Source: Pyropia yezoensis (lineage: Eukaryota; Rhodophyta; Bangiophyceae; Bangiales; Bangiaceae). From it: a DNA stretch of 64,000 bases. Position numbers and translations under genes: made by a program. The DNA lies in assembly GCA_009829735.1 (NCBI GenBank), contig CM020619.1, positions 26,057,248 through 26,121,247 of the forward strand. Direction: 5' to 3'. Positions 42,443 to 63,299 of this stretch are shown one piece after another. Within the stretch, counting starts at the first letter, position 1; each line of letters begins with the position of its first letter. Below the pieces are notes generated by a model that was given only the letters and a program-made list of their open reading frames with translations, made no database searches and was not told the origin of the DNA.

Positions 42443-42745
42443 GTTCCGACCGACCCGGTCGGCCCTGTGAGGGGGTGCGTAAACGCACGTCTCCGCGTTG
42501 GGGGACGCGACTTGCTGTCCCCCCCTTGAGTACGTCACGCGGATGTGGAGGCGGTCATGTTGACCGCCCCTCTCCTCAAGCTTGCCCACTTGGCAGCTTG
42601 CTTTCCTCGGTTCACACCTCACCACCACCACCACTTCCCCTTTACCTTACACGGGGCCGCCCCACGCTGGGGAGGCCACCCGTCTACCCACGATCCGAGT
42701 CCCCCTTAACTCGAGGCGGGTCTCGTGCCGCGATAGCCAGGGCGT

Positions 42746-42766
42746 CTCTCCCCAACTTGGGGAGAG
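42746..42766. repeat. Perfect inverted repeat before the family B antisense ORF
   Basis: Arms CTCTCCCCAA and TTGGGGAGAG around a single C, ending two bases before the ATG at 42769. It is the longest example of the CAACTTG-type palindromes scattered through family B. Confidence 0.8.
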
Positions 42767-42768
42767 CC

Positions 42769-44346
42769 ATGGCGACTCCGGGAGTGGAGACGGACTCTCT
42801 CGATGAGCGTATGGAGGACACCTCCTACGGTGCAGCGCCCGCCGGGACTTCCGGCGGGGGCTCCGCGATCGCTCCGGGGGATGGGACTCCCGCGTCACCC
42901 GGCTTTGGGTTGACGGCGGGATCTCCCCCGGAGGCGGGACAAATTGTCCCGCGTGAGGCCTTGGGGCGGTGGTTTTACCCCGCTTGGCCTCTGTATGAGG
43001 AGGGGTTGACCGTTCTTTGCTGTGGCCGACTTGGCGCAGCGATGGGTCGAGTATGGGACCGCCTACGGGAGAAGTATTCCCGTAGGGTCGGGTTCCCTGC
43101 CGGCTTCAGGACGGACCAGTTTGCCTTCCTGGACGACGAGGAGGTTGAGGACGTGCAGCGGGCCAAGGCAATAGTGGACCGCGGGGGAACTATCCCGGGT
43201 CCCGGCGACTTGCCGACCTTCACTTGGGACGCGGTGGCAACTCGCCCCCCGTACCTTCACGAGGCCGATCCGCACACTCATCACTTTGATGTGCGGATGG
43301 GGAAGGACTTCCGACGAGGTCCCTACTTGGTGACCTCGGCTCAACTTGAGTTTCCTCAGCAGTCTGCTGCCAGTAAGAAGCAGTACTACCCGAAGAAACC
43401 CGAGTGGTGGCCTCAAGTTGAGGTCCCCTACGGGTTCCCGGCGTTGTTGCCACGGTTGCTTGACCACTTTGGCTCCGTCATGTTGACGGCTGGCCTTGAT
43501 CACCTGGTGTGGGCCATGTTGGCCACCCAGTGGCTCCTCGAGGTCATGTCGACCTGGGTCTCTTGTGTTCAGCGGCGGGGGATGCTCTGGAATCTCCCCC
43601 TCCGGCTCATCCAGGGTTTGGAACAGCTCACCCCTCAGCTAGTTGCTGAGGGGTGCTCGTCAGGACAACTCACTCTACTTGAGGAGATGCTCCGCCTCCA
43701 CAAGTTTATCGAGTGGGAGAGCATTGAGCACAAGTTGCGCCGCCCCACTCGTGGGCCCAAGGACGATGGCGCACTTCGCCAGTTCGTGTGGGTCGCTCGT
43801 GAACTTCACGACGGCCGTGTGGTCCTCCGAGAGGGGTTGGGCATCGGGGACTACCCGTATGCCCCGGGGGTGGATCGCCTCACTGCGCCACCCCCGGACA
43901 AGCCCATAGTTATGGCTGTGCCCTCATACGATGATCATATGACTCAACCTACTGCGGGGGCCCTAAGTCGGGGTCGCAGTTACACCCGGGTTCCGCCACC
44001 TCGGCGTGTTCCTCCGCTTCCTCCTGTCCCCTTCCAACCGCACGGGGACATCCCGATTAGCGTGGCCATTGAGTCGTCCACCCCGGTATCCCCCAACTTG
44101 GGGGCCACCCTCCTGACGGTATACCCCAAGTTGGTGTTAAAGCCCACGCCTCTAACCTCAGAGATGATGATCACCACGTTGGTGCGCACCATTTCCTGGT
44201 TGGCCGCGTCGACCGCAACCCTCCGAACTTCCGAGACTCCTCAACTTGAGGAGCGCGCTCGTACTGCAGTGGCGACCGCGAGTTGCGAGTCGGTGGCGGA
44301 GTTTATGACGGCCGAGTTGGCTCGCATTGGGGCTATTATGCCCTAG
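42769..44346 (+). CDS. Antisense accessory ORF of family B, 525 aa, intact
   Basis: Encoded opposite to gag-pol between pol and the 3' LTR. The ATG at 42769 (MATPGVETDSLDERMEDTSYG) is preferred because upstream in-frame sequence is LTR-proximal. The first 70 residues are acidic and Pro/Gly-rich. A mixed alpha/beta-looking core follows (REALGRWFYPAWPLYEEG, FDVRMGKDFRRGPYLVTSAQLEF). Residues 231-320 run LDHFGSVM... VQRRGMLWNLP... LIQGLEQLTPQLVAEG... LHKFIEW, which lines up with LRYFGSVL... VRRQGRLFHLP... IAQLGVDLIAAK... VHDAVNW of the family A antisense ORF. A Pro-rich region and a helical tail (RARTAVATASCESVAEFMTAELARIGAIMP) end it. No known family recognised. It could act against host silencing, as a chaperone or envelope-like product, or on DNA; the sequence does not decide. 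Confidence 0.8.
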   Translation: MATPGVETDSLDERMEDTSYGAAPAGTSGGGSAIAPGDGTPASPGFGLTAGSPPEAGQIVPREALGRWFYPAWPLYEEGLTVLCCGRLGAAMGRVWDRLREKYSRRVGFPAGFRTDQFAFLDDEEVEDVQRAKAIVDRGGTIPGPGDLPTFTWDAVATRPPYLHEADPHTHHFDVRMGKDFRRGPYLVTSAQLEFPQQSAASKKQYYPKKPEWWPQVEVPYGFPALLPRLLDHFGSVMLTAGLDHLVWAMLATQWLLEVMSTWVSCVQRRGMLWNLPLRLIQGLEQLTPQLVAEGCSSGQLTLLEEMLRLHKFIEWESIEHKLRRPTRGPKDDGALRQFVWVARELHDGRVVLREGLGIGDYPYAPGVDRLTAPPPDKPIVMAVPSYDDHMTQPTAGALSRGRSYTRVPPPRRVPPLPPVPFQPHGDIPISVAIESSTPVSPNLGATLLTVYPKLVLKPTPLTSEMMITTLVRTISWLAASTATLRTSETPQLEERARTAVATASCESVAEFMTAELARIGAIMP

Positions 44347-44441
44347 CCAGCCCCACTTGGGCGTGGCAAGCGTCGTGCGAGCCGGGCATACTCGCCTCCT
44401 CGCCGTCGTCGCCGACACTCACGGCGCTCTCCCTCCGTGTC

Positions 44442-44530
44442 GTAAGACGAGTTGTCTTACTCCGTCTCGGAGTCCTCTACCCCGTCGGAGACGGAGTCTG
44501 TCCGGCGACTGCGCGCAAACTTGCGCGCAG
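44442..44530. terminator. Cluster of three hairpins in the family B convergent spacer
   Basis: Perfect arms GTAAGAC/GTCTTAC (44442-44460), CTCCGTCTC/GAGACGGAG (44460-44496) and CTGCGCGCAA/TTGCGCGCAG (44509-44530) lie between the antisense ORF end (44346) and the pol end (44793). Their place matches the palindromic units of family A. A role in ending both transcripts is inferred. Confidence 0.6.
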
Positions 44531-44792
44531 GACCAAGCAGAAGAGTAGCCACGGTCGGCGCCACTTGCGCGACCGTGAGGGGCGCGACGGGTCCGACTTG
44601 GAGCCGCCGGACCCGCCGACTGGTGGGGAGCGTTACCGCCGCGAGGGCCGTGGGATTGGTAAGTCTAGAATGCATGCCTAGTTGGCAGCTGCCTTTGTTG
44701 TGAGAGTGTGAGGGTTAGGGCTGTAGTTAAAAGCCACTCTGCGTACCACCTCGACTTGAAGCACTCTCTTGGCACTGTTGCTCGGCCTTCCC

Positions 44793-47700
44793 TCACGTTG
44801 AGGTAGGGCTGTTAGGGTCTATCTCGTTCCGGGCACAGTACGCCCGGACCTTCTCAGCGGGAAGGTCCTCCACATATTCCCACGTATCATCCTTGGCCTT
44901 GTAGCCAAACCAACGCACCCTCAACATGAGGCGGTCAGTATCCTCATCCCAGCCGTGGTCGATGAACTTGTCGAACACGTACTCCTGCGGGCCCTGTTTG
45001 GCCGCAGGCACCGAGGGGAGGCGCCACGCTTTCAACGCACGCGCCCAAGCTGGGTCGCCTACAGGCGGTGGTGCAACTTTCACCACGTCCTGTCCGTTGA
45101 CTGTGCTGACCCCATCGTCACTTTCGATGGTGAAGTGCCGCCCGTCGGTACGAAGGACCTGGTACGGCCCCTTCGTTTGGAAAACCAACTTACCCCCAGT
45201 TGGGGTATGTGAGTGTACCGGCACCCAGTCACCCTGGTCGGGGACATGCTTCGCATTGCGCACCCTTTTGTCAAAGGTACGCTTGTAGCGCTTTTGTGCC
45301 TTGTCCATCTCAGCCCTGACTTTAGGGATGAGGTGTTCAAGCCTAGCAGCGAACTCCGCCTTACTCTTAGTAGGAGTAGGCGTACTGCCACCATCCTCCC
45401 TAGTTGGAAGCGGCCGCCGCACAGCAATAGACCGAACGCGACGGGGGGTCACATAAGCGAGGGGTACTTCTCCAGTAGATGAGTGAACCTGCGAATTGTA
45501 GGCAGTGGTAAGAATAGAAATGTATTGGTCCCACGTCTTCACGTGCTCACTCACATAGTGGCGCAGCTGCCTAACAATAGTTTTGTTGAAGCGCTCCACC
45601 TGCCCATTAGTTTGTGGGTGGTAGGGGGTGGCATAGTTTGCCTTAACCCCCAACATATCCAGCACTCCCTGAAACAGTACAGACGCACATTGCGCTCCAT
45701 TGTCCGATAGTGTACTATCCGGAATGCCATACGCGGCAACCCAATGATCTAGGAAGGCTGACACGACACACATGGCCGTGATCTCTGCCAGTGGGATCGC
45801 TCGCGTAAGTTTCGTGAAGCGGTCACAGATGACCAGGAGGTACTGCTTGCCCTCCTCGGTCACTGGCAGTGGCCCAAGGATGTCCATCGCCAACGCGGCG
45901 AAGGGCTCCTTGGCCGGGAACAATAGCATAGCCGTAGTAGGCCGCCGTTCCATCAAACGGTTCTGTGCACAACTTGTGCAGGCAGCCACCCAACTGTAGA
46001 TGTCCACCACCATGGACGGCCAGTAGTACCTGGTCCTCAGGGTCTGGTACAGTTTACTAGACCAGAGGTGTCCACCCGTGGGAGCGTTGTGCTCCCTCTC
46101 AAGGATACTGTCCTTGAGGGATGTGGGGACGACAAGTTGTTCGGTCCCCTGGAATACCCCCCTCCTCATGAGGAGGCCATCGTCTCCCAGAAAGAACCGC
46201 GTCTCCGCCACTGTATCCAGTGTATCCCTCTGCGACTTGCAGAAGGGATCCTCGGCCTGGGCCTTCACCACTTCGTCCAGGGACAGGGGCAAGTACTTCT
46301 TGTTCCCTGGCGCCTCGGGGTCCAACGCCTGACCCGAGCGCATGACTACCCCCACGATGGGGATGTCCTCATCGACTGGGGTGGTGTCCAGTCCCTCGGT
46401 AGGTACCCGAGAGAGGCCGTCGGCAAGGGCATGTTGCCTGCCAGGTCGGTACTCAATATCAAAGTTGAAGGGTGCAAGTCGCACCCTCCACCGGTTGAGA
46501 CGAGTGTTCGTACAGTCCGTCTTGAAGATGAACTGCAACGCGCGGTGGTCACAGCGGATGAGGAACTTCTCACCCTCTAGGTAGTGACGAAGTGACGTCA
46601 CCGCCCACACCACTGCGAGTCCTTCCAACTCGGTGACTCCGTAGTTCTTCTCGGCCGAGTTCAGCCCCTTGCTGAAGTATCCCACCGGCAAGTACTCCTT
46701 GTCCGGCTGCTGCTGAAGCAACACACAACCAAGTTGGTCGTAGCTAGCGTCCACATCCAGGATGTAGTGGCCTCCCAACCTGGGAATAGCCAAGATGGGG
46801 GGCTTCAGCAGAAGGTCCCGAAGAGTCTCAAAGGATTCCTGCTCCACCCGACTTGGGGGAGGCAGGTTCTTCGGTAGCGTTGAGCTCACTAGCTCATTCA
46901 ATGGCTTCGTCACCTTGGCGAAGCCCTTGGTGAAACGTCAGTACACGTTACACATCCCGAGGAAGCTCCTCATCTGGGTCTGGGTCCGGGGGTACTGAGC
47001 CTTGCGGATGGCTCTCAAGTTTTTCTCGTTGACACTGAGACGCCCCGGACGGACAACATGTCCCAAGTATTCCACCTCCTGAGTGATGAGGTGGCACTTA
47101 CTCGCCTTCAGTGACACACCGGCGTCAGCAAGTAGCTTGAACACCTGGCCAAGATGGCCAATGTGCTCTTCCGGACTTCGTGAGAACACAATGATATCGT
47201 CTAGGTACACGAGACAGATCTGCCACCGTACTCCGGCCAGAATCATGTCCATAGCGCGCTGGAAAGTTGCCGGCGCGTTACACAGGCCAAACGGTAGACG
47301 CTTGCACTGGTGGTACCACAGTGACAGGTAAAGGTAGTTTTATGCCTGTCCTCCGGGGCAATGGGAATTTGCCAGTACCCCGCGTTACAGTCCAGGGTAG
47401 AGAACACGTTTGCCTCCCCCAGAGAGTCCAGACAGTCATCCATCCTAGGTAGGGGATAACTGTCCTTCACCGTGCTCTCGTTGAGCTTGCGGTAGTCGAT
47501 ACAGAACCGGGGGGTCCCATCAACTTTGGGGACGATAACCACCGGACTCGCCCACTCGGCGTTGCTGGCCTCGATCACATCGAGGGCCTCCATGCGAGCA
47601 ACTTGCTCCTTATCGAGGGCCCTTGAACGGGGTCCTCCCCTATACGGTTGTTGGCGTATAGGGGGTGCACCGGGCTTCAATTCGATCCGGTGTTGGGTAG

Positions 47701-48775
47701 CTCTCATGAGTCCCAATTGACCATCCCACAACTTGTGATATTGGTCCAAGAGGCGTTCAACTTGAACCCTCAACCTGGGTGGAACACCCTCCATGTTCAC
47801 ATGGGGCCGAGGAGAGGCGGCCGACTTGGCTTGAAGCTCCTCCTTTCCGGACTTCGGGTCGCTACTTGCGCCCGCGTTGAGGGTGACCGCTATTACCGGT
47901 CCCTCGTGTTGGTCGATATAGCCGAACTTGGCTCCCGACTTGAAGTACTTGGGCGACGAGCTCAGGTTCATCACCTGGATCCTCCACGGGACTCCGGCTT
48001 TGGAGTCCATCGTGCCAAGGGCAACATGCACTTGGTGCTTGCGAGCAAGACGGGGGTTAGGGTGCACCAACCCGTTCCCCGTATAATCAGTTACAACATC
48101 CACGTGCGCCACCGAGTTCGGGGGCAACGTGACTTTACGGGCTAAACGCAGGGTAGCAGTAAACCCTTCCCTCACAGAGCAAACAGGCTTCGACTGTGAG
48201 ACTGTCACAGGAGCCACAGACTTTCCCTTACCAAGGATGGGGATAGTCTCCCCATTCATCAACTTGACCCAGTACTCAGGGCCACAAATCAAAGGCACTT
48301 GTGTTACGACATAAGGGGTAACCAGAAGCAGGGGTACCGATATATTCTCAACTACACCATAGGTCACGTCGACCTCATGGGTCCCCAACCTAGTTGGTAG
48401 GGTCACAGCACCAACGATGGGAAGTACCCCACCATTGATATCAATCAGATGGTCAGCTTTAGACTTCCAGCGTTGGAGCTTCATCTCCTTTGGTAATAGA
48501 GACTTGCGTATCAAGGAGGCTCCTGACCCGGTATCAAGTACGACACGGGCACAACAGGCGCGGCCGGGGGCAAGTTGCACCCGTCCAGCCACCTGGAAGT
48601 TCTCACCCGTCAGCACCGCGATGACCCGACGTGGGTTTACGTTCTTGGGGCGTCCTACCCGAGGTGGGCGGACTCCCTTAGGTCGCCGCAATATCCGACA
48701 CGGTTGATTCGTCCTTTTGGCCCACTTGGCCGAGGCTGCCGTTGTGAGCTTCGGACGACCAGCTCCAACGGTCAT
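44793..48775 (-). pseudogene. Pol polyprotein of family B (one frameshift, one nonsense)
   Basis: ATG at 48775 overlaps the gag TGA and lies in the -1 frame. Protease VLDTGSGASLIRK (about 48545-48519); RT FCIDYRKLN and YLDD (47207-47196); RNase H YILDVDASYDQLGC and CDHRALQF; integrase zinc module (H-x4-H then C-TSC), DILGP, SDNGAQ, HPQTNGQVERF; chromodomain near the end (RVRWFGYKAKDDTWEY). The frame is lost near 47300-47330, just before KRLPFGLCNAPATF, and resumes in another frame. TGA at 46938-46940 follows CNVY. Both breaks lie in the RT, so this copy cannot make active enzyme by itself. Confidence 0.9.
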
Positions 48776-50718
48776 TCTTTTCCCGCCGACTTGGCGTCCG
48801 AATCTGAGGGCGGAGGGGAAGACGACGAATCCGAGGACGACGTGTCCGCCTCCTCCGCCGAGGGTGTGGCGACCGCCACCACTGGTCGAGACCCACCCTC
48901 GCGGCGTGAACGTACTTCGTTCGTAGCCGACTTCTTACTCGCATTCCTAACAAGTTGTTGGATGCGTTTACTCAAATTGGGGCAGTCATATGCCCAGTGA
49001 CCATCGGAGTTGCAGTTCCAACACCGATTGTCAGTTCCCGGAGGGGTCTTCCCAACTGGGGAAGACGACGAGGTACCTTGGGAAGTTCCCACGGCAGCTA
49101 CCACCCTCTCCTTGCGGATTCGGCGTGCCTCTCGCAACTCTCTGGCCTGGCGCGCCTCCTCCCGTTCCTTGGCCAACTCGGCTTGACGCTCCTGGCGTTG
49201 TTCCTCCCGCAACTTGCGGTAGGCCTCGCCTCTGCGGTAGGCGAACCTAGCCAACTCGGCCAGGGTCGCCCGGGCAGTGTTATGCTCCCGGGCCTCCATC
49301 CGGACTGACCAATGGAGTCCCTCCACAAACCGACTCTTCACCACAGCTTGTGGATGAAGGAACCCACAAAGATTGTTGAGCTTACGGACTCGCTCCGCGA
49401 AGGACAACTCGTCCTCCGCCTCTTCCTGATGGGCTTGCGTGAACTCCTCGACTTGAGAAGCCAACGCCGCTTCATCAACCATGACTCTCAACAACCAGTT
49501 GACGAGCTCCAGGTAGGACGTCACCTCTCCAGCGCCTCCACTTGAGGAGCTGGGCATGAGGGACATAAGTTCTGTCCGCAGGTCTCCCTTCGTAAACTCC
49601 TGTAGCATGTAAAAAGCCATGCCTTCACTTATGGCATTGTCGTCACAGGCTTTTGTGAAACGACGTAGGAACTCAAAGACACGGAGGGGGGGAGTTCCAT
49701 CCCACTCCGCTTTGTGCCCAAAAGAGTGAAGTGCATTCTTCTTGGCACGGCCCATGGCTCGGGCCTGGTCAGGACCATACGCCACCGACTTGTTGTGGAG
49801 GGCGTAGGTCTCACAGTCAAAGATCCTCTGGTAGACCGGGTTGGCTACCTGGATCTTGGGCGGCACCTCATGTTGAGGGAACAGCCGCTGTGGCACGGGG
49901 GTAAGTTCACCCTCAGTGCCTGTAGTCCGGCGCGGCGCGCTTAGTGTAGCCGCCGGCGGTGCCGGGGGGAACTCCCCCATGAAGGGCGTATGCCCCACCG
50001 AGTATGGTGTGGCTCCCTCGTTGGGAGTCACAGGTGTCGCCCCCTGTTCGGGGCGACCCGAGATAGGCGTGAAGGGGGATCCCCCCTGTACCTGCGGGCT
50101 CGAAAGCCCCAATCCGGTCTGGACATAAAGGCCATCTGGCAAACTCGCCACAATCTGATTCAGAATAGTATTCGTCATCGTGACCACCAGGTCCGGCAAA
50201 GTCTGCCGCAACACATTGGTCGCCTCCCGACGGACAGTTTCCGCGAGGAGTGGATTGACGACTCCAGTTGAGTCTCGGTCCGCCTCCGGGAGTCCACCTG
50301 AGGGGTAACCACGTTCCTCAGGGGTCTCAACCGGGGGCATGGGCGCAAGCCTATCGCCGACCAACGGAGGTCCGCCGTCCTTCGAAAGCCTAGTTGGCGA
50401 CGGCTCCATGCCAAAGTTGGCTCCAACCCGAGTGGAACCCGCGGGGACAGTCCTCACCCCTTGGGACGTTCCCGTTGAGTATACCACGCGGTGGGCAGAC
50501 TTCGGCCCACCCACATCAGAAGTGTCACCCGAGTGAACTCCCGACTGAGTCGGGGTGGCCTGTTGCCCGCCCGCACTTCCAGTCCTGCTGGCTTGAGGGA
50601 CCTCTAGTCCCTCTGCGACCCCAGGTAAACCCACCTGTGTCTCACCAGTATTCAAAGGCACTGAAGTACGTGCGTCACCCGTGTACTCCCCCGACGACGG
50701 GGGGTCCGAGCTAGCCAT
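48772..50718 (-). CDS. Gag of family B, 648 aa, intact
   Basis: Particle-forming and RNA-binding protein. ATG at 50718 (MASSDPPSSGEYTG...). The Pro/Gly/Thr-rich N-terminal half is followed by a capsid-like region (WDGTPPLRVFEFLRRFTKAC, SFAERVRKLNNLCGFL, FVEGLHWSVRMEAREHN). A highly charged helix comes next (REEQRQERQAELAKEREEAR), then a CCHC knuckle (CWNCNSDGHWAYDC, C-x2-C-x4-H-x4-C, about 49023-48982), and a Ser/Asp-rich tail. The stop TGA at 48772-48774 overlaps the pol ATG. Uninterrupted, unlike pol of the same element. Confidence 0.88.
   Translation of the reverse strand: MASSDPPSSGEYTGDARTSVPLNTGETQVGLPGVAEGLEVPQASRTGSAGGQQATPTQSGVHSGDTSDVGGPKSAHRVVYSTGTSQGVRTVPAGSTRVGANFGMEPSPTRLSKDGGPPLVGDRLAPMPPVETPEERGYPSGGLPEADRDSTGVVNPLLAETVRREATNVLRQTLPDLVVTMTNTILNQIVASLPDGLYVQTGLGLSSPQVQGGSPFTPISGRPEQGATPVTPNEGATPYSVGHTPFMGEFPPAPPAATLSAPRRTTGTEGELTPVPQRLFPQHEVPPKIQVANPVYQRIFDCETYALHNKSVAYGPDQARAMGRAKKNALHSFGHKAEWDGTPPLRVFEFLRRFTKACDDNAISEGMAFYMLQEFTKGDLRTELMSLMPSSSSGGAGEVTSYLELVNWLLRVMVDEAALASQVEEFTQAHQEEAEDELSFAERVRKLNNLCGFLHPQAVVKSRFVEGLHWSVRMEAREHNTARATLAELARFAYRRGEAYRKLREEQRQERQAELAKEREEARQARELREARRIRKERVVAAVGTSQGTSSSSPVGKTPPGTDNRCWNCNSDGHWAYDCPNLSKRIQQLVRNASKKSATNEVRSRREGGSRPVVAVATPSAEEADTSSSDSSSSPPPSDSDAKSAGKE
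48778..48784 (-). promoter_or_regulatory. Predicted -1 frameshift heptamer GGGAAAA (family B)
   Basis: Gag codons GCG GGA AAA GAA TGA contain G-GGA-AAA one codon before the stop; the -1 frame reads AGA ATG ACC into pol. Same design as GGGAAAC in family A. Confidence 0.7.
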
Positions 50719-50816
50719 GTTGGCTAACGATCCGTATGACACGGTCCAAGTCCACCGTTCCTCTGAGACAGAGGGCCCCCTACACCCGGGTGCACCCGGA
50801 GGTAAAGTTTACCTCT

Positions 50817-50835
50817 GTCCCCTGCTGCTCCACCA
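50817..50835 (-). promoter_or_regulatory. Primer-binding site, family B
   Basis: The minus strand TGGTGGAGCAGCAGGGGAC begins two bases inside the 5' LTR. Next to it is a palindrome, arms GAGGTAAA/TTTACCTC. The primer sequence is the same as in family A copy II. Confidence 0.75.
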
Positions 50836-50837
50836 AA

Positions 50838-51306
50838 TGTGGCAAAAACCACTCGCACACACGGCACCCAAGTTGGGGCGGTGTACAAGGGCTGCCTCCC
50901 GTGTCGGGGGAACCGGAAGAAGTGCAAGTCGCGCACGCTCTGTCCCTGTTGTGGGGCAAACCCCCCACTGACAAACAAGAAGATGGTGTGTGGTCCAACA
51001 GTTTCTTGGTCGGGACGGGGACGCAGGGCCAAGCCCCGCTGTACCTCCCCTTATCCCCCCAGGGTCCACTCAGAATCTCGCCACTCAGAATCTCCCACCC
51101 CAGCACCTGCCCACCGGGCCACACGAAAATGCAAGACGATAAATGCAGAAAACCCTCAAATCCAAGTTGGATTTACAACTAAGCTAACTATCCCAAACTT
51201 AGGGAATACGGACCCAAATGCAGGGGGAGGAACGGATCAGGCTAGTGGCCTGCCGCCCCTTGCATGGCACGTGTTGCCCCCCTACCTGGGGGTCAATACT
51301 GCCACA
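50838..51306 (-). repeat. Family B LTR (5' LTR)
   Basis: 469 bp, TGTGGCA...TGCCACA, three differences from the left LTR. Confidence 0.92.
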
Positions 51307-51311
51307 GAGCG

Positions 51312-51570
51312 CAAGCCACGGGACCAAGATGGGAGCCCAAATGGGAGGGGTTTGTTGTTCTACCTTGGCCGGCGGTGGATTCGCCGCCGGCCCCCTCGTT
51401 ATAAACCCTCGGAGACACTACTAACTACCCTCCACCCCAAGATGCAAGTCCCTCTGGTCATACGTAACTTATAGATTCCGTGACCAGTACGGACTCTCAA
51501 ATTGAAAGTTAAGGCTTCTAAGTAGCCCCCCTAATATTAGGGTTACAATACGGCCAAGCATATTGCTACA
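51312..51570 (-). repeat. Family A LTR, right fragment (copy IV 3' LTR)
   Basis: Completes the LTR begun at 41856 (104 + 259 = 363 bp). The purine-rich AAAGGGGGGGATA follows on the minus-strand side at 51571-51583. Confidence 0.9.
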
Positions 51571-52164
51571 TATCCCCCCCTTTGATTCGGCCCGTCCTCG
51601 GGTCGAGGTGCATTTGGGTTACCGAATGTAATTGGGTCGCGTGACTGTTTACCAGTCGGGTGGGGCTTTGCGCCCCGTCGCGACAGACACCCCTTTTCGA
51701 GGTTGTCTGAGGGGGGTGCCCCCCTTTGTGTGGTACACACACGATCCGTTTTCCGGACCGTTAATTTCCCGATGCGGGTGCTTGTTCATGACCCCCCTTT
51801 CCGAGGGGTGGTGCAAGCGGATCCGCCACCAGGTGCCTGGTGGTAGGGGGGGGGGCCCTCTCGTGGGGACGATTGAGTAGGGGCGGGGACTGCCCGCGTT
51901 GAGTGGGGGCGGTTGGGGATGACCCCCTCTTGGTTGCCCCGTACGGGGGTGTGGCCCCGTCCCGCCCAGGTGCCTGGGTAGAGCGCCCTCGTAGCTCGGC
52001 TGGCGCGGGTCGTCCCGCGTGCCTGCGGCGCTTCTCGTGGCCGTTTGTGGTCATAAGCGCGGGTGCCCGCGCTTCCCTGGCTCGTCCTGCACGAGCGTTC
52101 CTCGTACCGGGTCGAGCCGGCCTCGGCTTTCTGCACGAGGTGCCCCTGCTACCCCGGTTGCACC

Positions 52165-54534
52165 ATGTCGGACCCCCAGGTACCCGGGGGTGAGGACGAC
52201 CTCCTGCTTGAGGAAGGGGAGGAGGTGATGGTGGACGACGTTCCCGTCTCTGCCACCGCCGCCGAGAGCTTCTTGGCAAGCTCATCGGAGGACGAGGACG
52301 ACCGGGTGACCGTTCGTGTGGCCCCGGGAGGCGCGCCGGGCGGGTTGTCGTCCGTGTGTAGCGGTACGACGGCTCCGTCGGGTGGCGGACAACCGCGTGC
52401 AGCGGTGGGCTCTACCACGACTCCTTCGGCGGTCCGGATGGCTTCTGTCGTCGGTGCCGGCGCGGCTCTCCCTCAAGACGGTGTCGCCGGCGTGGCGGAT
52501 GGTGGTGGCGGCCCCCCGGCCAGTACGGCGGGTCAAGACGGCGCGGATGCCCGCCCGGTTGGTGTGTCCGCGGCGGCGGGTAGCGGGTCTACCCGTGCTG
52601 CCCCCGTGGTACCCACGTCGGGTCCGGGTGGCGGCGATGCTCTGCCCGCGGTGCCGCGGGCGCGTGATGGTCAAGAGGCATCTACCCCGATGGCAGTGGA
52701 CTCCGGGAGTCACTCCGGGCGGGCGCCCGCCCTTCTTCTTCCTCCTTGGCCGCGTGCGCCTCCGGCGCCGGCCCCTCTGCCGGTGGGGCATCCCCCGGCG
52801 CCTCCGATTCTTCCTGGTCCTGCCCGGGTTGCCCCGTTGGGTGGCGGCGTCGCCGTGGCGGCGGGTCAACCCGCCATGTTGATGTCCGACTTGGTGGCTC
52901 GGGTTCGAGGCCTGTCTGTGCAAGAGGCAATGGAATCCGATGGGCGGATGCGGGTGGACTTCCACCTGGTCCATCCCCGTGGAGAGTCCTCCCGGCGTGT
53001 CAAGGTGGACCCGAGTTGGGAGCGGGAGTTGGTGCGGCTGGTCAACCAGCCGAACGCGGTGCGAGTGGAACACCATTGGATCCTGAGTCGGCCGGACGAC
53101 CGGCCTGCGCAGCTCTGGCGCACTCGGGTGGGACGGGGTGAGGTCTACCTCGACCCCAACTTCGGGGTATGCGACCTGATTGCCCCCGCGTTGCCGCGGG
53201 AGATTGACTACCCGGCTAGTGCTCGGGGGATTGCGTCGGCGGCGGAGCCGGTTGCGTTTGGGGAGACGGTGGGCAGTACCGGTCGGTATCCCGACTTTGA
53301 CTACTACCCGGGGGTACCCCCGTATCTGTCTTTGACGGCTCCCTACGCGCCTATGGCGGGGTTGAGGTCGGCGTCGAGTTGGCGACGTAACCATGGTGTC
53401 ATGGCGGATGCGTTCCGCACGGATATAACGTGTGCGTTGCAGACCGGCAACGGTCGTGCTCCGGTATACACTCCCGTGCGCCCGCCGCTATGGCAGGAGG
53501 GGTGGGAACCCGCCCCTGCTTTCCGGTTTGACACCGGCTCCTGTCTTCGCTACTTCGGGAGTGTGTTGGCCTCCCGACCGGTCCACCCGTTGCAGGGTAC
53601 CTTCACCCTTGAGGTTACCCTCGGGCAGGCTTCCTCCTTCTTGCTGTCCGTCCGCCGGCAGGGGCGCCTGTTTCATCTTCCGACGGGTGTCCGTCGGCAC
53701 ATCGCGCAGTTGGGCGTGGACCTGATAGCTGCCAAGACCGGGTTCGCCCGGGAGTTCGAGGCCCTGCTGGCTGTTCACGATGCCGTGAACTGGGCTGGGG
53801 TGTTGGCCCTTCCCCCGTACCGGGACCCGCAGGCTGGGGCTACCCCCTTGCCCCGTCACTCGTTGCGTATCCGGAGTACTCAGCCGGGTGAGCCCAGTTG
53901 CCATGGGTGGGCGTCCACCGAGGCTGTTGCTGACCTGGGTATTCCCATGGTTATCCATGATCCTCTTCAGGTCCTTGCCCCGTGGTTCGGTAACCCGATA
54001 CCGGCGGCGGTTGGCCGTCGTCCCCGAGAGTGGGGCTCTGCGGGTGGGGAGCGTGAGGTGTCCCGTCGTCGGGCGGAGCCCCGCCGGGGTTACGGTGGAG
54101 CCCCTTCGGTAGGGTCCTACCGGGCCTCGTATCAGGTGCCACCGGCTCCGGTGGTAGCCGTGTCGGCTCCTGTGGCTCCTCTGGCTGCGCCACTGTCACC
54201 TCCCGCCCCTGTCATGCCTGACGGGGGTCCCCGTCTCTGGTATGAGGGCGTTGACGCCCTTGTTACCCGCGCAATGCGGGGGGGTCTCTCTGTTAGCTGG
54301 GGGGATATCCCCCCAGGTGCTGCGCGGGTAGGGTCAGCGCGTTGCTTCGGTGGCGTGCTTGACCACCTCCAGAAAGCTCTGGAGGACGTGGAGGCTGGCC
54401 GCAGCACCCTTGTCCAGCTATGCACCGAGGTAACTCAGGTGATTGACCGTCGTGATATTACCGACTGGTGGAGCACGGAGGTCCACGCGCTTACGCGTGA
54501 GTGGCCTCCCTCGGGCAGTGGGTCTACCCAATGA
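52165..54534 (+). CDS. Antisense accessory ORF type A1, 789 aa, intact
   Basis: The only unbroken family A copy in the window. ATG at 52165 (MSDPQVPGGEDDLLLEEGEE). Residues 1-60 are strongly acidic with Ser/Glu/Asp runs (SSSEDEDDR); 60-240 are Pro/Gly/Ala-rich. The conserved part follows: MSDLVARVRGL (240), RMRVDFHL, RELVRLVNQPNAVRVEHHWILS, PREIDYPASARG, LRSASSWRRNHGVMADAFRTD, LRYFGSVLA (FGSV at 464-467), VRRQGRLFHLPTGVRRHIAQLG, VHDAVNW, DPLQVLAPWFGNP, an Arg-rich stretch, and a C-terminal block PDGGPRLWYEGVDAL...VSWGDIPPGA. No signal peptide, membrane span or zinc motif is evident. No known family recognised. It lies opposite to gag-pol, next to the LTR that would have to act as its promoter in reverse. 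Gag and pol of this same element are broken while this frame is intact. Confidence 0.85.
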   Translation: MSDPQVPGGEDDLLLEEGEEVMVDDVPVSATAAESFLASSSEDEDDRVTVRVAPGGAPGGLSSVCSGTTAPSGGGQPRAAVGSTTTPSAVRMASVVGAGAALPQDGVAGVADGGGGPPASTAGQDGADARPVGVSAAAGSGSTRAAPVVPTSGPGGGDALPAVPRARDGQEASTPMAVDSGSHSGRAPALLLPPWPRAPPAPAPLPVGHPPAPPILPGPARVAPLGGGVAVAAGQPAMLMSDLVARVRGLSVQEAMESDGRMRVDFHLVHPRGESSRRVKVDPSWERELVRLVNQPNAVRVEHHWILSRPDDRPAQLWRTRVGRGEVYLDPNFGVCDLIAPALPREIDYPASARGIASAAEPVAFGETVGSTGRYPDFDYYPGVPPYLSLTAPYAPMAGLRSASSWRRNHGVMADAFRTDITCALQTGNGRAPVYTPVRPPLWQEGWEPAPAFRFDTGSCLRYFGSVLASRPVHPLQGTFTLEVTLGQASSFLLSVRRQGRLFHLPTGVRRHIAQLGVDLIAAKTGFAREFEALLAVHDAVNWAGVLALPPYRDPQAGATPLPRHSLRIRSTQPGEPSCHGWASTEAVADLGIPMVIHDPLQVLAPWFGNPIPAAVGRRPREWGSAGGEREVSRRRAEPRRGYGGAPSVGSYRASYQVPPAPVVAVSAPVAPLAAPLSPPAPVMPDGGPRLWYEGVDALVTRAMRGGLSVSWGDIPPGAARVGSARCFGGVLDHLQKALEDVEAGRSTLVQLCTEVTQVIDRRDITDWWSTEVHALTREWPPSGSGSTQ

Positions 54535-54976: not shown

Positions 54977-57900
54977 TTACAGGAGGCGTCGTCGCCTCAT
55001 GTAAGGCATGAGGAGCTGGCGGGGTATATTCGCCGCCTGTTCCCAGGTGGGTGAGTCGTATCCGACCCACATAACCTTGACGTACCAGGGTCCTGGTAGG
55101 TCCGGGTCGGTGTGTCCGACCACGCTCTCTACTTGGTATGGAATCCCATCCGGTCCCACTGGGTCATCTGACCGGTGGGTTGTAAGAGCTTCATGTAGCA
55201 ACCCAGCCGGTACCGGCTGAGGCTGTTCCGGCTTCGGAGCAGGTGTGACATCACTCACACTGATTCGTTGGATCTCCGTATCGGAGTGTAAGATAACAGA
55301 GTGGTCATCTCTGTGGAGAATTTGGCACGGTCCCTTGACCGGTTGCATGAGCTTATTGCCCCGGAACTTCTGGTGTCTGATATAGACCCAGTCACCTGTT
55401 ACCAGGGTAGCGTTGCGCACCCGTAGTCGGGCGTCGAAGTTCTTCTTGTATCGAAGTTGTGTTCTGTCAAGGGCACCCTTGAGCTTAGGAATCATCCACG
55501 ATAGCTTGGCCAACCAAGCTAGGTGGATGCGTTCGGCCGGTCGGCCTTTCGGTGTATCATACCGAGTGCATCTGCCTGGCGGCAGCGTCAGGTTACCGAC
55601 GCCTAAGGGCATGACCCACTCGAGCGGAGCGATGTTTGTGCTCCGATGTGGCCTGGAATTGTATGCCAGGGTGAGCACGGACAGAAGCCTGTCCCAAGTG
55701 TTCGTGTGCTCGGCCACGTAGCACTGTAGCATCTTGACGATGGTGCGGTTGAACCGCTCCACCTGCCCGTTGGTTTGCGGGTGGTAGTCGGATGCCCGAC
55801 GTGGTTCGATACCGAACATGCCCAGGACCTTAGTGCAGAATGCTGACGTAAGATTTGCTCCGTTGTCGGAGAGCAGTTTCTTCATGACTCCGTACGCACT
55901 GATCCAGTGGTCAACCACTGCGTTCATAATCGTGTATGCCGTATCATTCGGGATGGCTGCCGCTCGTGACAACTTGGTGAAGCGGTCAGACATGACCAGG
56001 ATGTACCTGTTCCCTTCTTCCGTTACCGGAAGTGGCCCGAGTATGTCGATAGCGACCTGCTCGTTGGGCCCATCAGGTGGGAACAGCTTCATGGCAGACG
56101 CCTGCCTATGTAGACTCATGCGGTTACGTGCACAGGGGTGGCATCCCCTTACGTGGTCGACCACGTCGACGGCCATTGCTGGCCAGTAGAAGAACCTTCG
56201 CATTGCTGCGAACATACGTGAACCCCCCGGGTGTCCGGCTGTAGGGTTCTGGTGTTCTCGTTCCATGACAGCTTGCCGTAAGGACACGGGAACCACGACT
56301 TGATGTCGTCCATCGGCGGGTGCCCGCCGGTATATGAGTCCGTCTTCATTCTCGGAGAAGATGCCGGCCGTACCGGCCAGGAGGTTGGCGCGATGGCGTC
56401 TACAGTCGTCGTCATTGGCTTGTGCCTCGCGGAAGTCCGCGAGAGTCAGTGGGCATGCTCGGTGTGCCATGGTATGGTCAACCATACCTTGGGTGGCGTT
56501 ACCCACCATGCAGACCGGTACCACCGGGATGTCTTCGTCCACCGGGCGGGTATCCCCGCTCGGGGTGTCGAGTCGAGACAATGCGTCTCCGAGATGGTGC
56601 GTTGACCCAGCCTTATACACGGTACGGTAGTCGTGCTCGGCCATCTTCAGCCTCCATCGGGCTAGCCTCCCGTGGCTATCGGAATCCTTGTCACCAAGGT
56701 TGAGGAGCCATCGTAGAGGTTCGTGGTCGGACCTCACGCTGAACCTAGAGCCCTCCAGGTATGGACGGAGCAGTTGCACTGCCCATATAACTCCGAGGCA
56801 TTTACGCTCGGTGGCACTATAGTTACGCTCAGCCGGGTTGAGTGTCCGGCTGAAGTACCCTACCGGACGTAGGTCCGGGATAACGTTATCGGTACCGATC
56901 AACGTCTCTCCCTGCAACAGGGTGCATCCCACTTGTGTATCACACGCATCGACATCGATGACGAAGGTCCCCGGTCAGTGCGGTAACGCAAGGACGGGTG
57001 GGCATAGTAGGGCTCGCTTCAGCGACTCGAATGCCTCCTCTTCGCTAGGTGAAGGGGGTTGAAGTACCTTGGGCAAGGTACTGCTCGTAAGAACCGTTAA
57101 CGGTTTAGCTATCCGAGCGAAGTCCTTGACGAACCGTCGGTATACATTGCACATTCCCAGGAAGCTCCTGAGCTGCGTCTGGGTGTTAGGGAACCGGGCA
57201 TCCCGGAGTGCCCGGGTATTGGCTTCTAGTACCCCTAGTTTACCAGGGGTGATCTGGTGGCCCAGATACTCGACCGTCTGTTGGAAGAAGGCGCACTTCT
57301 TCAGACGCAGGGTTACCCCGGCGTTCCGCAAGAGGGTGAGTACCTCGTCAACATGTTGCACATGGTCATCCATGTTACGCGAGAAGACGATGACGTCATC
57401 GAGGTACACTAGGCAGTTACGCCACTTCACCCCCGACAGTATAATGTCGATAGCCCGCTGGAAGGTAGCGGGGGCGTTGGAAAATCCGAAGGGCATCCTT
57501 AGGAACTCGTACACTCCACTGTGACAGACGAATGCCGTCTTGGGGATATCCTCGTCCGCCACCGGGATCTGCCAGTATCCGGCATTGCAGTCGATGGTGG
57601 TAAAAACCGTAGCTTCTCCCAGGGAGTCGATGCATTCATCCATCCTTGGTAAGGGGTATGAGTCCTTCTTGGTAACCAAGTTGAGGCGTCGATAGTCGAT
57701 GCAAAACTGAGGGGTTTGATCCTTCTTCGGTACGATAACGACTGGGGCACCCCATTCCGACATCGAAGGTCGTATCACCTTCGCTTCGCTCATCCTCTTC
57801 ACTTCTCCATCAACGATCTCTCGTTGCATAGGTCCCGCTCGGTGCGGTTGTGACCGGGCGGGGCGTGCGCCTGGTACCAGGTCAATACGATGTTGGGTTG

Positions 57901-59142
57901 CCCCAATGGTACCCAAGGTCCCGCCTGTCCACATGACGACATGCTTTCTTAGCATCCGTCGTACCCCTTCGGCTACCGAAGGGGGAAGGTGGTCGAGGTC
58001 AGCCTCGGCCAGGGCCTTCAATGCTTCTTGGTCCTTCGGCGGAATATCCGCCGGTAGTGATGGTCGACTAGGCTTCCCGTCATCGGGTTGCTGTCGCTCG
58101 GTGGTCTCGGCGACCGCCAGCACCTCAAGTGGTTCCACTTGACCTCCCTTGTCAGGGGTAAGGATATCTCCTTCGTAAAGCTCGGCAATCCCGAGGATAG
58201 TTCCCTTCGGGAGGGTGACTGCCTTACGGCGATAGTTCGCCATCACTAGGAGGGACGACCCTCCTGCTGGGAGGTCTATGCGACCGTTGGCCATGGTCAA
58301 CCCATGGCGGTTGTACGTCCGCAGGTTGGACTGGACTCTGCAGATGCCTGCGAGGTCACAGTTAACCGGAAGGACTGTCTCCGACAACGGCTCAAAGCGA
58401 GTTCGCTTGGCCAACCGAAGTGTCTTCGGCTCGACGCTTGCGTATACCTCAGCCACGTTAACGTGGCTCCCTTGCAGCGTCAGGTCCCTGACGATAGCCG
58501 TATGTCCGCGCTTCGTCCCGTCGGCTTCTTGAAGCTCGACGGTCCTCCGGCCTGGCCGGATTGCATCCACGTGAACGTTGATGAAGGTGCATCCCAGTAT
58601 GCAGGGCACCGATAGGGTTTCACACACCAGGAAGTCGACTTCCGTGGTGAGTTCCCCGATGGTAACCCGCAGCGACATCGCTGCGGTCGTGCGAATGAGG
58701 CGACCATTCGCGTCCTTGATGGTGGGTCCCCGAGTGACTCTGACCCGCGGAAGCCACTTGTCCGGGAGGGTATCCTTCCGGATAAGGTTGGGTCCAGCCC
58801 CTGTATCCAGTACAGGGTAGTACGATCGTGTCGACTGGGGGTCAACCCCTAGTGTAGCTGATACCTTGAAGTTCTCCAAGGTGAACAGTACGTGACCTAC
58901 ACCGATATCCGGTGTAGCTCGGGCATCCTGAACAGGGCCCTTGTCTGGTTCAACGTGACGGGGCATCCCGTCCTCTCCCCCCACCTTTGGTGGTTGGTCA
59001 TGATCCCCTGACGCCGTGTCGTCGGGGCCGGAAGGTGTACCCGGGGGTTGATGCGGCGCCGGCTCAACCGCGCTCTCCGTGGGGCTTTTCCCGCGGTACG
59101 CCGGGGTGGCTTGCTTGGGTTACCCCAGCGCCCCCCGGTCAT
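54977..59142 (-). pseudogene. Pol polyprotein of family A copy IV (one frameshift, one nonsense)
   Basis: ATG at 59142. A one-base loss near 59000-59003 shifts the frame before the protease. From 58984 the frame is open through protease and RT (YLDD 57406-57395) to TGA at 56975-56977, where sister copies read CGC or AGA in the HRRGTFVID stretch at the RT/RNase H boundary. From there it is open through RNase H, integrase and chromodomain to TAA 54977-54979. Catalytic motifs are otherwise complete. Confidence 0.9.
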
Positions 59143-59150: not shown

Positions 59151-61334
59151 TTACTCGTTTCCCGCCCTTGGTAGGGTGCTGTCCGCCGGGACATCCGGCT
59201 GAGGAGGTGCCTCCTCGACGGCCAGTACTCCACCTGGAGCTGGCTGCCTACCCGGTGCGGGTCCGGGTGCTCTGGCGGGATACCCCCCGGTGGATGCCTT
59301 GCGTTGCGCCGCTGCCCGCCGAGACTCTTCGGGGATGAGTGGGCAGGACGACACCCAGTGCTAAGAATCCCCACACAACATACATCCGGACGTACCGGTC
59401 CCCCCTTGAGTTCGCATCGGGGTAGCCCCGTAGTTGCGGTTGCCTCCCTCGGGCGCCCGAGGGCCTGCTCATTGGTAGGCCTTGGGTCTTTGGGTCAACC
59501 GGAACATGGACTCCCCCAACCGGTTGGGTCGGCCCGCAATCTGCGGAGGTGCCTCCGTGCGCACCGCCCATGTTGGCAAGGGTTGGTGAGGGTTACCCGT
59601 CACCGGGGAGTACCCCGTAGTCTGTACGTACGGGACGCGACGTCCCGCACCTTCGTTGACCTGGAACTGGGTTCCAGCCGGGGCGATGTACGCTACCGTA
59701 CCATGTTCATCAATCACCGGCGTCGCCGGTAGCAACAGGTGGCCCTGTTGGTCGACTAGAGGTTCATCCTCACCCGAAGGGGGATGTTCGGTCGCCACCA
59801 GTACTGGTGCGGCCTTACGCTCCACCTTCTCTTGCCTCGGTACCGGGGTAAGACTGGGCTTGTCTCCCTCACCCTTGGGCTTTGAGGCAAGAGCACACTC
59901 CGGGTGAAGCACCCGGTAGGCGTCCCCCAGGGACTTGCACATATGCATCAGTCGACTGAAGTTCGTCCGTGCCGTGTTGGCGCCCCGTGCGGATATCCGC
60001 ACGTAGTCGGGTACTCCTGCGAACAGGATGGCCCGTAGTTCCCCTTCTCCGAAGAGCTTCCCCAGCTCGTAGTCGAGCTCTTGAATCCGTCGTCCGAACA
60101 TCTCCTCATCCTCCCAGCTCTGGGCGGTGGCAGTGCGAAGGGCCCGATAGTGGTCCTCGCACTTGTCCTTACTGAGGTAACTGCTCAGCAGCTCCTTGAG
60201 AATCCCACGGTAATCCATGGGGGTAACCGCAACCCTCATTCCCGGCATCGGGGATGCCTGGCGAAGGATGCCTCGCACCCGTTCATCAACAAAGAACGGG
60301 AGGATCTCCAGTGCCAGCCCCTCGTTAACGAGCGCCTTGTCCGCGGCTGCCTTGAAGCTAGTCAAGAAGCCAATGACTGCCAACGGGCGTCCGTTCGGCC
60401 CCCCGCACATAGGGACTCCCTTCATAAGGGTCTGCATAGAGCGGATCGCCCGATGCGACGTATTACGCATCGATTCCGATACGGTGGTAGAGCGGTCCTC
60501 CAAACGATAACGTTCCGGAGTAAGAACCGACCGGAAGACCTCGTTGACGATCTCCGTGTCAGCGTCCTGGATATCCAGTCGCTTATCCAGTTGATGAGCA
60601 AACTCATCGGACTCCATCCGCTTCAGTAGGCTCGCAGTTACCTGCGCGGTCATAGCTTCCACCACTGAAGATGGTGCTTCAGGCGTCGGCACCTCGGGAA
60701 CCCGAGTAGCCTGGCCTCCTTCGTCGTGGGGGTACTGCGAGAGGGTACCCCCTCCCCCAATAACCGACTCTCCACCGGCGTAAGTATCCGCCGGGTCGTC
60801 TCCGCGGAGTCCGCTTCGGGTGCTCCGAGCGTATCGCTCCGTGTGACTCCGTTCAAACTCTGCCGACGAGTCGGATCCATACCCCGTTGTGTCCGGGGGT
60901 TGTCTAGGAGTAGAAACACCGGAGTTAACCCTGGAGGACTCCGAAAGTAGTCCGGCTGGTTCAAACCGTACCGGTGTGGGAGGAACACGACGGGGTCCCG
61001 TCGTGTGGCGTGTTGACATCAACACTGCCATTGCGTCCTCCGTCCGACCTTGACGAGCGTCGAGCCCGGAAAACCGGGCCTCGATGCGGGCCAATGATGC
61101 CATCAGGAAATCCCCTGGTGAAGGAGGCGGCGGCGTGAGGTCGGTCGACGACAGTTGAGGCGGGCCCCCGCCTCCTGCCGTCCGAGCCGTGCCAAACGTC
61201 GATCCGGCACCGGAAAGCATTGGCGTCTCAATGTTGTCGATCGGGTTCCCGATCCCGGTTCCCGTAGTCACCTCCGGACTCGGCGTCGACGCCGATCCGT
61301 CATCTTCAACGTTCCCCGTCTCTTGGGTAGACAT
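59151..61334 (-). pseudogene. Gag of family A copy IV (two nonsense codons near the zinc knuckle)
   Basis: ATG 61334, stop TAA 59151-59153, 727 codons. TGA at 59469-59471 (after RPKAYQ) and TAG near 59363 inside the knuckle (CGD-S-stop-HW) remove the RNA-binding C-terminus. The capsid-like part is intact. Confidence 0.85.
59157..59163 (-). promoter_or_regulatory. Predicted -1 frameshift heptamer GGGAAAC (copy IV)
   Basis: Third conserved occurrence of GCG GGA AAC GAG TAA at the gag end, with pol in the -1 frame. Confidence 0.75.
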
Positions 61335-61539
61335 AGTCACAATCAGTCAACCGATGTAACAATCACCACGAATAAGAGAGCGAGGGAGTAGATCGGGGAG
61401 AGTAACAGTAGATCACAGTCAGAGGTAAAAACTCAACACGATCGATCAGGTCGCAACACCACGAGTACAAGAAAAGGACCGGATCCCTATCCGTGTGCCA
61501 GGGCCGAAGACGGCGTCACCACCAGGGTGACGGAAACCC

Positions 61540-61558: not shown

Positions 61559-61559
61559 A

Positions 61560-61922
61560 TGTAGCACAATAGGAATCCGTCGCACGTCCACTCTCAGGGA
61601 ACACTCACCAAGGGGGATCGGCACCAACGTCACCGGGAGGCCAAGGTTGCTGTCCTTGGAGCGCAAGCCACGGGACCAAGATGGGAGCCCAAATGGGAGG
61701 GGTTTGTTGTTCTACCTTGGCCGGCGGTGGATTCGCCGCCGGCCCCCTCGTTATAAACCCTCGGAGACACTACTAACTACCCTCCACCCCAAGATGCAAG
61801 TCCCTCTGGTCATACGTAACTTATAGATACCGTGACCAGTACGGACTCTCAAATTGAAAGTTAAGGCTTATAAGTAGCCCCCCTAATATTAGGGTTACAA
61901 TACGGCCAACCATATTGCTACA
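61560..61922 (-). repeat. Family A LTR (5' LTR of copy IV)
   Basis: 363 bp; right edge of the nested element, followed by the duplication GTTGC and the resumed antisense ORF. Confidence 0.9.
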
Positions 61923-63299
61923 GTTGCCCCCGCGCAGCCGCGGGAGGTGGATTACCCTGCGGGTGCCCGCGGGGTGGCTGCTACCCAGACCCCTGTGGCC
62001 TTCGGGCAGCTCGTGCCTGGTACCAACCGGTATCCCGGTTTGGATTACTACCCGGGGGATCCCCCGTATCTGTGGCTGACGCCGCCCTTCCCGACCATGG
62101 GTGGCCTGAAGTCGGCGTCCAGCTGGCGTCGAAACCATGGTGTCATGGCGGACCCATTCCGCACGGATGTAACGTGCGCGTTGCAGACCGGTAACGGTCG
62201 TGCGCCCGTATACACTCTGTTGCGCCCGCCTGGGTGGCAAGAGGGGTGGGAGCTCGCCCCGGCTTTCCGGTTTGACACCGGTCCTTGCCTGCGATACTTC
62301 AGCAGTGTGCTGGCCGCTCGGCCCACGCATGTGCTGCAGGGTGTCTCCACCCTCGAGGTTACCCTCGGGCAGGTTTCTTCCTTCCTGTTGTCGGCCCGCC
62401 GACAGGGCCGGCTCTTCCATCTTCCGACGGGTGTCCGTCGGCACCTTGGGGAGCTAGGCGTTGACGCCATTGCTACTGGGACGGGGTTAACCCGTGAGCT
62501 GACTGCGCTCGTGGCGGTTCACGATGCCGTGAACTGGTCGGCGGTGGCAACCTTGCCGCCGTTCCGCGACGCGCAACCGGGAACGCTCCCGTTGCCTCGT
62601 CACTCGCTACGTATCCGCCGAGTTATCTCCGGTGAGGATAGATACCAGGGGTGGGCATCCACCGAGTCGGTACCAGGCCTGGGTATTCCCGTGGTTCTGC
62701 CCGACCCTCTCCAGGTGGGAACCCCCTGGTTCGGTAACCCGACTCCTATGGGGACGGGTCGCCGTCGCCGTGAGTGGGACTCCACTGGTGGAGGCCGCGA
62801 GACATATCGTCGTTGTGGGGAGTTCCACTGGGTTCCCGGTGGCATTCTGCCCAGGAGTCTGGTCATCCTTCACGGTTGTACCGTGCTCCTTACCAGCTAC
62901 CGCCGTGTCCGGCGGTGGCGGTGTCCACACCTCCGGCTGTAGCTCCGGTTCCTCCGGTGGCATCGCCGGCTCCGTCATGCCCGACGGGGGTCCTCGCTTG
63001 TGGTATGAGGGCGTTAACGCCCTTCACTCTCGTGAGTTCACGGAGGCGCCTCCGGTTAGCTGGGGGACATCCCCCCAGCTGCTGCGCTGGTGGGTACCGC
63101 GCGTTGCCTCGGTTGGGTGCTCAACCGCCTACAGATGGCTCTGGATGCTGTGGAGGCTGGTGACAGCACTCTGGTGCATCTTAGCGCTGAGGTAGCTCAG
63201 GCGCTCAACCGGCGTGAGATAGCCGACCGTTGGAGTACGGAAGTGTACGCGACGACGCGTGACTGGCCCCCTTCTGCTGGCGAGGGTAACCCCGTCTGA
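61923..63299 (+). pseudogene. Antisense accessory ORF type A2, 3' half (outer element), with frameshifts
   Basis: Nearly identical to 22702-24081. Compared with that copy, single bases are missing near 62840 (GGTGGCATT), 62972 (CTCCGTCATG) and 63062 (CTGGGGGACA), which break the frame after ...GEFHWVPGG. The stop is at 63297-63299. Confidence 0.8.

Follow-up and report, generated by a model that had tools for sequence, protein, structure and literature searches.

An additional gene antisense to gag-pol in Ty3/gypsy chromovirus-like elements of the red alga Pyropia yezoensis: selected, exchanged and a candidate nuclear regulator

Why does a retrotransposon with minus-strand gag and pol genes carry a long open frame on the plus strand, between pol and its 3' long terminal repeat (LTR)? 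This question is raised by positions 52165-54534 of a 64,000-nucleotide stretch of the red alga Pyropia yezoensis (GCA_009829735.1, contig CM020619.1, positions 26,057,248 to 26,121,247), hereafter the window, which as a whole is a nest of LTR retrotransposons. The frame is an additional open reading frame (aORF) of an element of family A, in which aORF types A1 and A2 can be told apart, and a second element family, B, carries a frame in the same slot. We consider it fairly likely that the aORF serves red-algal Ty3/gypsy chromovirus-like elements as an accessory gene, sited in antisense orientation between pol and the 3' LTR, which is selected, exchanged among elements and may encode a nuclear regulator. 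From sequence comparison, its product is best read as belonging to a putative new protein family that occupies an architectural slot already known.

An antisense gene under purifying selection

Domain matches place gag, protease, reverse transcriptase, RNase H and integrase of the family A copy all on the minus strand, with pol ending at 54977 and in-frame stops at and behind the zinc knuckle in the gag/pol link. The LTRs are 363 nt long with the ends TGTAGCA...TGCTACA, and the target-site duplication (TSD) is GTTGC. A nested element B (TSD GAGCG, its two LTRs differing at 3 of 469 sites) has divided the 3' LTR in two; of 368 sites aligned between the 5' and 3' LTRs of the A copy, with the 5-nt duplication due to B entered twice, 5 are different. 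Taken together, the LTRs, the TSD and the polypurine tract beside 51570 put the frame 52165-54534 between pol and the 3' LTR and antisense to gag-pol, where a preliminary description made from the letters had located a frame of about 2370 nt. The parts of the two elements are as follows.

61560..61922, minus strand: 5' LTR of family A (LTR comparison)
59469..61346, minus strand: gag of family A
56975..59119, minus strand: N-terminal part of pol with protease and reverse transcriptase
54977..56974, minus strand: C-terminal part of pol with RNase H, integrase and a weak chromodomain-like end
52165..54534, plus strand: aORF A1, antisense accessory gene, intact, 789 aa (frame, dN/dS)
52885..54084, plus strand: conserved core of the aORF, aa 241-640 (omega by block, alignment)
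54301..54501, plus strand: C-terminal helices (about aa 713-779), the sole stretch of the protein whose predicted local distance difference test score (pLDDT) exceeds 50
51571..52164, plus strand: candidate promoter or leader of the antisense mRNA, from the 3' LTR to the aORF ATG
51571..51583, minus strand: polypurine tract adjoining the 3' LTR (sequence)
51307..51570, minus strand: larger part of the family A 3' LTR; its first 5 nt are the TSD of B
41960..51306, minus strand: nested element B, chromovirus-like, with LTRs at 41960-42428 and 50838-51306
42769..44346, plus strand: aORF of element B, apparent remote homologue of aORF A, 525 aa, truncated here
41856..41959, minus strand: piece of the family A 3' LTR severed by B; its last 5 nt are the TSD of B

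The plus frame translates into 789 aa and a stop and is alone stop-free, the other five frames over this interval holding 5 to 25 stops each. Selection on the protein is seen in the ratio of nonsynonymous to synonymous substitution rates (dN/dS, omega): intact genomic A1 and A2 copies differ by a dN of 0.221 and a dS of 1.046 over 777 codons, giving an omega of 0.211 with a likelihood ratio test value of 231.8 against omega = 1. This comparison had been set beforehand as the check on the earlier claim of an accessory protein kept by selection, which is borne out, as the ratio is not near 1 either among genomic copies or in the window's own A1 and A2 pieces (0.21 for codons 339-783, 0.32 for codons 1-338). 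Four further pairs among A copies range from 0.25 to 0.40, and the window A1 copy against the main A1 type gives 0.45. By block, omega amounts to 0.28 in the low-complexity N-terminus, 0.13 at aa 241-345, 0.11 at aa 346-470, 0.19 at aa 471-560, 0.31 at aa 561-690 and 0.20 in the C-terminus, with the strongest constraint at aa 241-470 (0.11-0.13).

Moreover, all 11 gaps between intact A1 and A2 copies (L018, L049) are multiples of three, as against only one of eight in the leader, and the window pieces show only two gaps of other lengths (5 and 1 nt), both at the ends of the compared stretches. The statement that A2 keeps the frame despite many substitutions thus stands for selection and in-frame gaps, but the A2 frame is longer, measuring 843 aa in five intact genomic copies. 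Within aORF types, the corresponding ratio of diversities (piN/piS) is 0.37 for 19 A1, 0.48 for 5 A2 and 0.09 for 9 B copies. Here, only full-length open copies of each type were sampled: 19 of 30 A1 loci (10 broken copies and the window copy excluded), 5 of 15 A2 loci (the rest being broken, cut or shorter) and 9 of 12 B loci (leaving aside the truncated copy of the window, a copy of 637 aa and another that contains a stop).

Long frames can also appear by chance in GC-rich DNA or as the shadow of a gene on the other strand; in fact, the window holds 70 stop-to-stop frames of at least 200 aa, and a 401-codon minus frame overlaps the aORF. Read in other frames, however, the A1 and B alignments give N/S ratios of 1.2 to 3.4 (1.2-1.3 in the minus in-register frame). 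The one exception is the minus frame whose wobble position coincides with that of the aORF, at 0.43 in A1 and 0.19 in B; this frame contains 20 stops in the window's A1 copy. A protein database search revealed aORF homologues in Pyropia vietnamensis, and these align along the plus frame. A chance or shadow frame is refuted and keeps practically no credence. Given purifying selection in two families, in-frame indels, many open copies and homologues in a second species, the aORF is a real protein-coding gene, with purifying selection acting on its protein in both element families.

Genomic copies, element B and exchange as a module

Besides the intact gene, the window contains the following further family A aORF copies and pieces.

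11166..13532, plus strand: second A1 aORF copy with one in-frame stop
22702..24081, plus strand: C-terminal half of an A2 aORF, open
31487..32929, minus strand: partial A1-like aORF copy, inverted
40699..41855, plus strand: N-terminal half of an A2 aORF, broken by the family A insertion, with one stop just before the insertion
61923..63299, plus strand: C-terminal half of the A2 aORF beyond the insertion, frameshifted

That one copy is intact, as first described, is true within the window; genome-wide, 39 of the 57 A1 copies scored are stop-free (counted by eye from the match table). The genome search scored the best candidates only, and all genomic copy counts are lower bounds that cover aORF-bearing loci and leave element copies without an aORF uncounted. 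An A2 C-terminal query gave 97 matches, with A2 copies at 91-100% identity, further ones at 81-88% and many at 67-70%; in this last group, A1 is mixed with other copies having an A1-like C-terminus and 22 rows show a stop-free 909-codon frame. Queries P0012 and P0011 yielded 126 and 130 matches, respectively, each revealing a further type at 97-99%. For B, 81 of 82 scored copies are stop-free, or 67 of 68 with the 647-aa B protein as query.

The order of genes is nearly constant over 59 loci (47 A and 12 B, four of them the window's own copies). The pol C-terminus lies antisense downstream of the aORF in 46 of 47 A and all 12 B loci, at a distance of 399 to 509 bp from the aORF match, and sense pol occurs in none of the 59. 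The claim that every copy has the antisense frame was therefore nearly right, with an antisense pol neighbour in 58 of 59 loci and L015 as the sole miss. An LTR was found upstream of the aORF in 30/30 A1, 11/12 B, 3/15 A2 and 1/2 other loci, the A2 count being limited by examined flanks that start mid-gene. Locus L060 combines a plus-strand frame of 850 codons with antisense pol behind it, in the order of the other loci, and no A or B LTR matched in the L060 stretch examined.

The gene had been described as a feature of family A, where it does occur; it is not confined to this family. The aORF of element B starts at 42769 in the same slot and orientation and has 525 aa in the window copy and 647 aa in most scored genomic copies. 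In the window copy (42769-44346), a stop precedes the Arg-rich C-terminal tail, whose region follows at 44347-44712. A and B are 41% identical in their pol C-termini, 25% in gag (515 codons) and 26% in the aORF (207 codons). The two aORFs match with 45.1 bits in BLASTP, against a maximum of 33.1 in 2000 shuffles, and with an E-value of about 2e-7 in tblastn within the window. In profile comparison, hhalign scores 49.8 over 180 columns (A 359-547, B 132-320), whereas gag and pol controls reach 15-16 and none of 60 column shuffles exceeds 23.7. With the shuffle tests run on one or a few representatives, the likeness between the aORFs of A and B is weak but real. A database search with the B aORF gave one other protein, 95% identical, among the ~8000 best candidates scored; as all searches for relatives scored about this number of candidates sharing most words, relatives elsewhere may have been missed. 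In an IMG/VR scan, none of 11 pattern matches encodes an aORF relative.

The label chromovirus, used from the outset, is tentative for both elements. For B, the Pfam Chromo match (E 5.2e-4, 20.3 bits) lies under the curated cut-off of 25.1; for A, Pfam gave no chromodomain match, and six of seven weak PDB matches (E 0.25-0.68) are to CDYL2 or cpSRP43, the latter a protein with a chromodomain. These weak matches lend the label weak support, and we speak of chromovirus-like elements.

The aORF is inherited with the elements yet exchanged among them as a module. Between the window A1 element and its A2-carrying neighbour, pol and gag have a dS of 0.05-0.10, whereas that between the aORF types is about 1. 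Among genomic loci, comparison of A1 with A2 carriers gives 91-94% identity for the pol ends and 72% for the last 900 nt of the aORFs; for two pairs of A1 carriers, the values are 94-95% and 96-99%, respectively. At the amino acid level, L060 is 86% identical to the window A element in pol and 51% in the aORF. Locus L058 (G000:C3:10820300-10825000) contains an A2/A1 recombinant aORF, whose first 600 nt are 89-91% identical to A2 and which after about 750 nt is 93-98% identical to A1; it is one of the 22 rows with a 909-codon frame and the sole one read at the DNA level. The 72% identity beside pol ends at 91-94%, together with L060 and the recombinant L058, shows both faster divergence of the aORF than of pol and its exchange, for which template switching during reverse transcription would be a likely route.

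An observation of its own concerns the leader 51571-52164. Next to the 3' LTR, the first 350 nt (51571-51920) are 90-98% identical between A1 and A2 although the adjoining aORF reaches only ~72%, and identity then varies between 53 and 94% per 50-nt step towards the ATG; the conserved part might be a promoter or packaging region.

Possible role of the protein and comparison with known systems

The aORF protein gave no Pfam match for 13 family A members and full-length B, and no PDB or usable fold match. Its N-terminus is rich in Pro, Gly and Ala (48% in aa 1-240), and in A1, A2, A2b, the recombinant and P0007 its first 50 residues are more acidic than in shuffled sequences. An Arg-rich stretch follows the core; it is individually weak in A and strong only in B, where the C-terminal tail of 122 residues has 27% R+K and an RRRRR run. 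Fair confidence in the models is limited to about 67 C-terminal residues, predicted to be helical. An origin of aORF A as a copy of gag was rejected, as comparison with its own gag gave 21-22 bits and an hhalign score of about 16.

The low-complexity, in the A types mostly acidic N-terminus, the compact conserved core, the Arg-rich stretch, the C-terminal helices and the position of the gene suggest, by analogy, that the protein could be a nuclear, nucleic-acid-associated regulator of the element, acting in transcription, RNA export or escape from silencing; we put this specific role forward tentatively, at somewhat less than even chances. Transcription could start from an own promoter in the ~590 nt between the 3' LTR and the ATG or run antisense from the LTR, and the resulting antisense mRNA would converge on gag-pol RNA.

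Several results weigh against an accessory gene for a nuclear regulator. In A1 and A2, pol is more constrained than the aORF: for its C-terminus, the copies sampled above give a piN/piS of 0.17 (A1), 0.16 (A2) and 0.07 (B). No domain of known function was detected in the protein, and two AlphaFold models are poor (mean pLDDT 33), so that the regulator role draws on composition and position. Even there, L060, B and P0004 show no significant acidity of the N-terminus, and the basic patch is non-significant against shuffles in 6 of 8 proteins, the low ones being A2 (23/1000) and B (21/1000). Regarding the homology of A and B, hhalign gives a probability of 78% (42% with an earlier, poorer alignment), and only 5 of 13 family A rows beat the best shuffle against B; A2C ties it, and 7 of 13 rows, several of them fragments, fall below.

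Other roles can be set beside that of a regulator. Lying antisense to the genomic RNA, the frame could matter through its transcript, a non-coding RNA that would pair with gag-pol RNA and so restrain or adjust the element; PMC7264820 regards antisense RNA regulation as possible and as compatible with a protein role. As the sole role, this is largely refuted by selection on the plus-frame amino acids (omega 0.21), in-frame indels and the piN/piS of 0.09 in B, and we rate it as highly improbable. A particle or RNA-packaging component, i.e., a Gag-like or nucleocapsid-like helper, would fit an A-B conservation of the aORF (26%, 207 codons) close to that of gag (25%, 515 codons). However, the protein does not resemble the gag of these elements (21-22 bits; hhalign about 16), and gag already has its own CCHC motif (Pfam zf-CCHC in B; a motif with a stop in this A copy), which makes such a helper rather unlikely.

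VANC proteins of VANDAL transposons bind element DNA and remove host silencing marks, and a factor of this kind would be a special case of a regulator. Changing targets could account for the less constrained N-terminus and the several, partly exchanged aORF types, and the basic tail of B also speaks for it; against it stands that the aORF protein matches no Pfam family, and we regard anti-silencing as unlikely, if less so than a packaging role. The broadest proposal, an old, undescribed superfamily of antisense-coded regulators in red-algal chromovirus-like elements, a mobile cassette convergent with HBZ and TRP28 whose type decides which elements amplify in the host, is speculative and only slightly better placed than anti-silencing.

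For the accessory gene proposed here, known systems offer parallels. HBZ of human T-cell leukaemia virus type 1 (HTLV-1) is an antisense-coded retroviral regulator with an acidic N-terminus, a basic stretch and a C-terminal helix. The aORF likewise lies antisense near the 3' LTR and in some members resembles this layout by composition, but it has no bZIP match in Pfam, no sequence relation was found and HTLV-1 is an animal retrovirus. An antisense promoter is located in the 3' LTR of HTLV-1 (PMC7264820).

LTR retrotransposons with antisense accessory genes of undetermined role have been known since the 1990s. Among these genes, the kind named aORF-3R occupies the interval from pol to the 3' LTR in antisense and is found in most copies of its element; examples are Grande gene23, RIRE2, Retand ORF4 and PvRetro13 in plants and Boty in fungi (all after PMC7264820). 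The A and B gene shares with these its orientation and slot, its presence in many genomic copies and an A-B conservation like that of gag. It differs in its red-algal host, in lacking a TRP28/PF04195 or SMC match in Pfam and in that a related protein, exchanged between lineages, occurs in a pair of element families whose pol identity is only 41%. Env-like aORFs occupy the same slot but are sense (PMC7264820), whereas here a plus-strand gene faces minus-strand gag-pol.

Retand lies outside the chromoviruses and has Eudicotyledons and Liliopsida as its only reported hosts; TRP28, which is thought to bind DNA, is encoded by 97% of Retand clusters (PMC11963269). Pfam gave no TRP28 (PF04195) match in the 13 family A members or full-length B, though a remote fold relation is conceivable. 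Given this and the other host lineage, the gene appears to be of the same kind as plant aORFs, while membership in a Retand-type family is not supported; of the parallel to plant Ty3/gypsy elements drawn in the preliminary description, the shared slot remains and the red-algal host and missing TRP28 domain set it apart. Titles and abstract openings of the literature surveyed describe no antisense ORF in red-algal retrotransposons.

The aORF family, for which no relationship with plant aORFs was detected, would thus fill their slot in a lineage distant from flowering plants. LTR retrotransposons are the predominant repeats in the P. yezoensis genome (PMC7423979), and an element gene governing their spread would therefore matter for nori genomes. 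Cassette exchange against a near-constant pol amounts to a natural recombination experiment. With many intact copies, strong selection on the protein of B (piN/piS 0.09) and exchange, the role of the aORF is testable by comparison, which could show which residues stay fixed and whether cassette type follows amplification.

Further observations in the window

A minus-strand fragment at 2625-3011 belongs to a third type of pol, whose integrase end has 29-37% identity with A and B, and hints at another element with a possible antisense gene of its own; on its 3' side (1-2600), neither significant similarity to A or B nor an aORF-like frame was found. The segment 36806-38793 has imperfect direct repeats, several long overlapping frames on both strands and GC up to 72%, and the two frames tested gave no Pfam match. 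Within one A element, a 1.24-kb gag stretch is repeated about 500 bp apart (19112-20351 and 20852-22092), and the 2-kb bin around this repeat has a low GC of 46%.

Moreover, 20852-24783 and 60074-64000 are 99.6% identical, and in both an A element has entered an A2 aORF at one and the same junction, which points to a segmental duplicate, conversion or an assembly effect. Elsewhere in the genome, G000:C2:25863829 and 25873587 carry an A1-like aORF (98%) and an A2 half (100%) at the same 9758-nt spacing.

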